Shown piece by piece: positions 54,484 through 55,929 of a DNA stretch of 56,612 bases (its first letter is position 1; every line of letters begins with the position of its first letter). The stretch covers positions 1-56,612 of the forward strand of contig CALUVS010000011.1 of NCBI GenBank assembly GCA_944324265.1. Direction: 5' to 3'. This DNA is from an uncultured Traorella sp. (GTDB lineage Bacteria; Bacillota_I; Bacilli_A; Erysipelotrichales; Erysipelotrichaceae). Both the position numbers and the translations under genes were made by a program. Below the pieces are notes generated by a model, which worked only from the letters and a program-made list of their open reading frames with translations, was not told the origin of the DNA and searched no databases.

Positions 54484-55929
54484 CTATTCTAAATCTTCAC
54501 CATTGGTTGCGATAACTTTTTTATACCAATCATAGCTGTCTTTTTTAATTCTTTTGCCGCTGCCTTTACCATAGTCATCTAAATCTACATAAATGAATCC
54601 ATATCTTTTTGACATTTCACTGGAGGAACAAGAAACTAAATCAATAGGACCCCAGGCATAATAACCCCTCAAATCTACTCCATCTTGTATCGCTTCTTTC
54701 ATTTGCTTGATATGTGCTCGATAAAAATCTACACGATAACTATCATGAATTTTTCCATCCTCTAATTGATCATAAAAGCCTGATCCATTTTCTGTGATAT
54801 AGATTGGTTTTTGATAGCGGTCATAAAAGGCATTTAACATAAATCTTAATCCGATTGGATCAAAGGTCCATCCCCATTTATTGGCAGGCAATTCCTTATT
54901 GCGATAATCTTCATTGCCATTTTCAAAATGCTGCTTATCGCAAACTCTTGTATAATAATAAGAAAATGAGAAGAAATCACAAGGATGAGAAAGATCTTCT
55001 TCATCATGCTCTCCAAATTCCACATGAATTCCTCTTTCTTCAAAAAATCTGAATGCATAGCCAGGATATTTTCCTCGCAGCAATACGTCTGAATAAAAGT
55101 ATTCCATCTGATTGTGGCGTAGTGTGGCCAACTGATCTTCTGGCTTTGCTGAAGCCGCATAGGCAGGCCCGCTGCACAGCATCATACCAATCTGCATTTC
55201 TGGATATTTTTCATGAGCATATTTTGTGACTCTGCCGCATGCAACCATTTCATTATGAACAGCCTGATATTTGGCACTTAATAAATCCTCGACCTTATCT
55301 TCTGCAATGCCCAAATGATTGAATGACTCATGACCAATCAAATTGATTTGATTAACAATGATCCATAATTTCACCTTTCCTGCATATCTATCTAATACTA
55401 TTTTGCAATATTTCTCAAAAAAATCAATGACTTCTCTTGAATACCACCCTATATAATGTGTGGTTAAGTGAAGAGGCATCTCATAATGTGATAATGTAAT
55501 CATCGGCTCCATGCCATTTTGAATAATTTCATCGATTAATTTATCATAAAATTGCAGTCCTGCTTCATTTGGTTCTTTATCATCACCATTTGGGAAAATA
55601 CGAGACCAATTAATACTTGTTCTGAATGTTTTTAATCCTAATCCTGCCAGTAATTTGAGATCTTCTTTATAGGTGTGATAAAAATCAATGCCCCATCTTT
55701 TCGGAAAGATCCTTCCATCATTGTGTCCTGCCTTCATGGCTTCTTCAACATATGAACTTGTCAATTCATCATTATATTTTTTTTCAAGTGCAATATCATC
55801 TCTGAATTCATTGATATCTGCCACACATAAACCCTTTCCGTCAAGATCATACGCTCCTTCAAGCTGATTGGCAGCAACAGCTCCTCCCCACAAGAAATCT
55901 TCAGGAAATCCTTTTGGTACCTTTCTCAT
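54484..55929 (-). CDS. GH1 phospho-glycosidase with acid/base Glu replaced by Gln (myrosinase-like)
   Basis: The 481-residue enzyme has the full GH1 fold, nucleophile Glu380 in YITENGSGF, and phosphate-binding Ser435, Lys441 and Tyr443 ([11 protein letters not shown]). At the acid/base site it reads IVNQIN: Gln194 replaces the Glu seen in the other three GH1 genes here (NEIN or NEQN). The codon is CAA at 55348-55350. Plant myrosinases carry the same Glu-to-Gln change because their glucosinolate aglycone needs no protonation. AAGGAG precedes the ATG. It is followed by a sulfatase and preceded by PTS IIA/IIB. It may be a thioglucosidase, may use an external base, or may be catalytically weak. 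Confidence 0.9.

Follow-up and report, generated by a model that had tools for sequence, protein, structure and literature searches.

A PTS-linked clade of GH1 6-phospho-beta-glucosidases with glutamine in place of the acid/base glutamate

GH1 is a textbook family of retaining glycosidases that work with a fixed pair of glutamates, and to our knowledge few natural GH1 lines outside the plant myrosinases do without the acid/base residue. Myrosinase-like activity was reportedly described for L. plantarum GH1 enzymes in a 2022 study (cited in PMC10360150). In plant myrosinase, Gln stands in the place of the acid/base Glu while the nucleophile is retained, and ascorbate supplies the base in the rate-limiting deglycosylation (PMC8585081). 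Gln is nonetheless no proof of a thioglucosidase, since insect myrosinases retain Glu (PMC9632345), and E. coli BglA and AscB, Glu-type 6-phospho-beta-glucosidases, have been reported in glucosinolate breakdown (PMC8660893); in our alignment BglA (2xhy) has Glu at the acid/base position. A bacterial pathway of related design is found in Companilactobacillus farciminis, where the PTS CfPttS and the GH1 enzyme CfPbgS import and cleave sinigrin as a 6-phosphorylated beta-glucoside (PMC8660893). The locus described here shares that plan, while CfPttS is a IIABC-type PTS, no sulfatase is reported there, and CfPbgS is 48-50% identical to E. coli BglA/AscB. With PTS import and GH1 cleavage of phosphorylated sinigrin known, this type of pathway has a precedent, while the active-site variant appears undescribed in the literature searched: as the earlier note on this DNA had supposed, our search, which was incomplete, found no PTS-type GH1 enzyme with Gln at this position.

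The window analyzed here is a stretch of 56,612 nucleotides that makes up one entire contig of a 2.2 Mb genome. An open reading frame on its minus strand (54484-55929) encodes a GH1 protein of 481 amino acids, P0001, with the (beta/alpha)8 fold of the family (PF00232, E=7e-122; closest fold 6wgd, Z 55.4, rmsd 1.6 over 453 residues). Its top NCBIfam models are all 6-phospho-beta-glucosidases, each scoring below its cut-off. Compared with solved GH1 6-phospho-beta-glucosidases (6wgd, BglA 2xhy, BglA-2 4ipl, SmBgl 3pn8 and LpPbg1 3qom), P0001 gives fold Z values of 53-55 and identities of 43-50%, and it shares with this group the nucleophile, the -1 subsite, the 6-phosphate site and residence in a PTS operon. 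What sets it apart is codon 194 (CAA, 55348..55350, minus strand), which places Gln in an NQIN motif after beta4 where 6wgd, 4ipl, 3pn8, 4f79 and 2xhy have the acid/base Glu of a NEIN motif. Because Gln194 replaces that Glu, P0001 is classed from its sequence as a member of a variant clade and not as a typical GH1 6-phospho-beta-glucosidase. The remaining -1 subsite residues are preserved alongside Gln194. The nucleophile Glu380 lies after beta7 in an ITENG motif (54790..54792, minus strand) and is Glu in 47/47 Gln-type and 91/91 Glu-type representative rows. Loop L8a carries Ser435, Lys441 and Tyr443, with no phosphomimetic Glu, when aligned to the 6-phosphate site described in PMC3605045. 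The alignment to solved enzymes bears out the earlier note's assignment of these residues. As that note also observed, Glu is retained by the window's three other GH1 proteins (23380-24813, 27646-29064 and 50550-51944, all on the minus strand). Elsewhere in the genome there are two more Gln-type GH1 genes (G000:C27:96-1526 and 7391-8809).

The gene is part of a minus-strand operon in the order IIB, IIA, GH1, sulfatase, and the contig ends upstream of IIB. The PTS genes are of the lactose/cellobiose type (IIB, 56245..56517, PF02302, E=1e-14; IIA, 55945..56244, PF02255, E=1e-26), and together with the family profile and the 6-phosphate site they support the earlier description of P0001 as a PTS-linked 6-phospho-glycosidase with a myrosinase-type Glu-to-Gln change. 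The sulfatase, P0002 (53000..54472), follows 12 bases after the GH1 gene. It matches the S1 sulfatase profile (PF00884, E=1e-37), has the formylglycine motif C/S-x-P-x-R as C52-V-P-S-R, and has no obvious signal peptide. One anSME-like radical SAM gene of the genome, a candidate sulfatase maturase (C10:45864-46868), scores 343.2 bits against a cut-off of 349.45. In a genome of another genus (G082) the order is IIC-IIB-IIA-GH1(Gln)-sulfatase, and the shared proteins are each 68-73% identical to those of the window, with values of 73% for IIB, 68% for IIA and 71% for the P0002 orthologue. Two closer orthologues of the GH1 protein (G003, 88%; G046, 83%) are accompanied by an unrelated PTS (26-29% identity) and by no sulfatase, so in these comparisons the sulfatase goes with the transporter more than with the hydrolase. 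The PTS of the window probably imports a glucoside in its sulfated state, and elsewhere the same type of GH1 enzyme would handle that glucoside desulfated. A sulfated glucoside is thus a plausible substrate here.

Homologues were drawn from 245 genomes of the family and from a scan of one genome per species beyond it. The earlier note had proposed asking by alignment whether Gln forms its own clade, and it does: in the wider tree of 138 rows, 47/47 Gln representatives form a single clade (support 100), and in a family tree of 97 sequences, 48/48 Gln rows fall on one side of one branch (support 100). Deleting the columns around 194 and 253 leaves the grouping in the wider tree unchanged, and no reversion to Glu occurs inside the clade among the sequences of either tree. 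The clade is nested among Glu-type 6-phospho-beta-glucosidases, so a single Glu-to-Gln change followed by wide spread is the simplest reading of the trees. These trees held no plant sequence, and the nearest relatives of P0001 are all bacterial 6-phospho enzymes. Plant myrosinases are distant in GH1, depend on ascorbate and are not 6-phospho enzymes, and the bacterial clade most likely changed within the 6-phospho group, independently of them. Gln is encoded by CAG in 62 and CAA in 34 of 96 homologues. The nearest relatives within the genus all retain it, including the 88% orthologue from another species; Gln194 is therefore neither chance nor error, and a sequencing error or isolated mutation is ruled out by the clade-wide Gln.

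Within the clade Q22, H148, E380, W426, K441, R442 and Y443 are invariant, and N193 is kept in 46/47 representatives. Such conservation is expected of catalysts and would be difficult to account for in inactive proteins. To judge from these alignments, the clade appears to be a functioning kind of enzyme whose chemistry has changed, and no accident. It is, in short, a real variant clade of a known family, apparently undescribed.

A column-by-column contrast of the 47 Gln with the 91 Glu representative rows points to where compensation for the lost Glu might lie. In none of the columns do all Gln rows share a newly gained acid, and a lone new carboxylate common to the clade is rejected; only the pair of positions 201 and 253 covers nearly all of it. 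Glu is present at 201 in 31/47 Gln representatives, among them P0001 (Glu201 codon 55327..55329, minus strand, in the beta4-alpha4 loop), and Asp or Glu at 253 in 24/47, compared with 3 and 0 of the 91 Glu rows. Together, an acid at 201 or 253 occurs in 45/47 Gln representatives and 3/91 Glu-type rows, and in the unreduced set in 91/93 against 8/118; the rows are related by descent, and Fisher values for such counts treat them as independent. The two Gln representatives with no acid at either position have Asp one or two residues past 201 (WGADF). Within the clade Glu201 and Asp253 change only 4-5 times each, which leaves a tree-aware test of compensation or exchange without power. In the predicted model (mean pLDDT 94.2), beta4 spans 188-192 and beta5 spans 246-252, so that 194 and 253 lie just past the active-site ends of adjacent barrel strands. 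This pattern in the alignment suggests that the 201/253 carboxylates may act as a base that has changed place, or as an internal equivalent of the ascorbate used by myrosinase. They are the part of this analysis that is new, the PTS/GH1 6-phospho family being known already, and they go beyond the earlier note in offering the alternative that the acid/base function may have shifted elsewhere instead of becoming unnecessary.

Our preferred explanation is that P0001 is an active cytoplasmic 6-phospho-beta-glycosidase of this clade. Glu380 would attack in the first step with little or no proton donation; by analogy with plant myrosinase, the glycosyl-enzyme intermediate should form in this way if the leaving group is good. 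A first step of this kind implies substrates whose leaving groups need little protonation, and the natural substrates would be PTS-phosphorylated beta-glucosides that are S-linked or carry acidic aryl or acyl groups. In the second step the carboxylate of the aglycone region (Glu201 here, Asp253 in others) would serve as the base that activates water, the job done by ascorbate in plant myrosinase. The substrate at this locus would probably be sulfated, with the neighboring cytoplasmic sulfatase removing the sulfate before or after cleavage. Counting against this account are the rarity of sulfatase genes at Gln-type loci and the different PTS, with no sulfatase, beside the 83-88% orthologues. 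For the explanation in its entirety our confidence falls just short of even, and the same tentative judgment, as part of that whole, covers the view that the clade is a distinct and old one that arose by a single replacement of the acid/base Glu. Of what the earlier note had inferred, the type of enzyme stands. Its substrate with a good leaving group, possibly a thioglucoside, is not established: the catalytic analogy and the sulfatase in the operon speak for it, and the Glu kept by insect myrosinases and by BglA and AscB speaks against treating Gln as the hallmark of a thioglucosidase.

The alternative that best survives supposes that Glu201 or Asp253 acts as full proton donor and base, in which case these enzymes would cleave ordinary O-linked 6-phospho-beta-glucosides. 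A carboxylate at one of two positions near adjacent strand ends is near-universal in Gln rows and rare in Glu rows, as this reading would lead one to expect, and the presence of several paralogues per genome in PTS operons of their own suggests a broad repertoire of glycosides over one special leaving group. It must, however, accommodate two alternative positions and two exceptions. Residue 201, moreover, presumably aligns with the aglycone-contact Phe198 of maize beta-glucosidase, so Glu201 may only bind the aglycone. On balance we regard this reading as unlikely, if deserving of weight. The related proposition that the catalytic carboxylate moved, with the acid/base role passing after one Glu-to-Gln change to Glu201 or to Asp253 at the end of beta5 as two alternative solutions within one clade, we consider possible and still doubtful.

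A stricter version of the myrosinase analogy would have the PTS import a glucosinolate, which the sulfatase and the Gln-type GH1 enzyme would convert to 6-P-glucose, sulfate and an isothiocyanate or nitrile. Glucosinolates are sulfated thioglucosides, two genera share the operon layout that puts the sulfatase directly behind the GH1 gene, and C. farciminis takes up and cleaves sinigrin with a PTS and a GH1 6-phospho-beta-glucosidase (PMC8660893). Yet that GH1 enzyme is the one 48-50% identical to E. coli BglA/AscB, and with Glu in BglA, Gln would be unnecessary for the task. Most Gln-type operons also lack a sulfatase: of the family's Gln-type loci, about 60 in all, 3 have one. Glu201, furthermore, stands at the position seven past Gln where plant myrosinase has Arg194. 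We judge this account improbable. The idea that a sulfatase generally accompanies the clade was rejected on the same locus count, other sulfatases of this family adjoining Glu-type GH1 or PTS genes.

Less probable again is the proposal that the extra carboxylates contact an aglycone that is basic or rich in hydroxyls and that Gln averts a charge conflict with an acidic substrate group, which itself would serve in catalysis: avoidance of sulfate repulsion has been given as the reason why myrosinase lost its Glu (PMC8585081), but here one substrate feature would be needed across many paralogues with different PTS partners. That the Gln proteins are sensors or decoys that bind without cleaving is very improbable, for even though E170Q was made at the same position as a catalytic mutant of Gan1D, a related 6-P enzyme (title of entry 4ze5), and some operons have a second, Glu-type GH1 gene, most operons have none, and the nucleophile, -1 and phosphate residues are invariant across a very diverse clade.

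Beyond the Erysipelotrichaceae, the clade is found in Listeria, Enterococcus, Neobacillus, Paenibacillus, Lachnospiraceae, Actinomycetota, Chloroflexota and an Enterobacter plasmid, with further members in Lactiplantibacillus, Vagococcus, Lacrimispora, Clostridium, Coprobacillaceae, Atopobiaceae and Pelolinea. In Enterococcus gilvus, Niallia taxi and Enterobacter ludwigii, the records that carry Gln-type GH1 genes are plasmids or megaplasmids. The genes sit mostly in PTS operons, and genomes often have several Gln-type paralogues, frequently with one PTS operon each. A phylum-wide search with the DNA pattern for W-I-x-x-N-Q-[IV]-N gave matches in the family and in the order to which it belongs, and the majority of the remaining matches look like chance; that sample is mainly of small genomes and says little about spread. 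The Listeria monocytogenes member, which we take to be lmo0917 from the gene order of EGD-e, lies in an IIB-IIC-IIA-GH1-PRD operon between a succinate-semialdehyde dehydrogenase gene and a Vga-type ABC-F gene. A literature search for a substrate of lmo0917 returned only its induction in soil extract (PMC3179493). In Listeria, the gene at the lmo0261 position is of the Glu type, and hence not every relative at 53% identity is of the Gln type.

A large 6-phospho clade lacking the acid/base residue and widespread in gut and soil bacteria offers a natural experiment on how a glycosidase manages when it has no general acid, as well as on whether another loop can take over the acid/base role. Current annotation names its genes simply as 6-phospho-beta-glucosidases and may thereby misstate the range of substrates. 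Should the enzymes accept S-linked or acyl glucosides, they would fill gaps in what is known of how microbes break down plant defense compounds.

Several smaller features of these loci deserve mention. At the edge of the contig, IIB as listed lacks the first residues of its relatives: no in-frame start precedes its CASG in 56245-56612, relatives start MKHILLVCASG, and an ATG lies just upstream in another frame. The cause is a shift by one base or else faulty assembly close to the end of the contig. Just upstream of IIB there is a terminator-like hairpin (56553..56610, minus strand; predicted -16.4 kcal/mol) followed by a T-rich run, and the contig ends at 56612. A separate operon at 49078-51992, beyond a divergent RpiR-type regulator, has a glucose-family IIBC and a more distant, NEQN-type GH1 gene, and a similar GH1 gene lies near the G082 sulfatase operon. 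Behind the 88% orthologue in G003 there are more tandem Gln-type GH1 genes, one of them interrupted (L054:10225-12764), which suggests recent duplication and decay.

Related sulfatases (41-46% identity) occur at or near Glu-type GH1 and PTS IIC genes in three other genomes (L261, L268 and L131 in G037, G028 and G009), and PTS, GH1 and cytoplasmic sulfatase may form a wider pattern. In G128 the sulfatase orthologue on C13 is split into residues 1-89 (L092:8478-8759; 107977-108258) and 91-490 (L260; 84500-85699), about 22 kb apart; a large-serine-recombinase-like open reading frame lies beside one part, and a mobile element probably inserted in the gene.

Among other neighbors, an old-yellow-enzyme-like gene never lies within three genes of Gln-type loci. 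A membrane protein resembling YczE/YitT, about 205 residues long, adjoins 12/62 Gln-type GH1 genes of the family (L053:1526-2146, L056:1539-2168, L087:10330-10941, L031:2677-3288 and others), and more distant proteins of this kind also occur in the Lactiplantibacillus and Paenibacillus loci; it is a weak candidate for a specific partner, most copies in the same genomes lying elsewhere. A protein of about 210 residues that contains Cys and weakly resembles the end of a dicluster-binding oxidoreductase also recurs beside Gln-type GH1 genes (L056:918-1535, L130:7184-7837 and L116:5543-6166).
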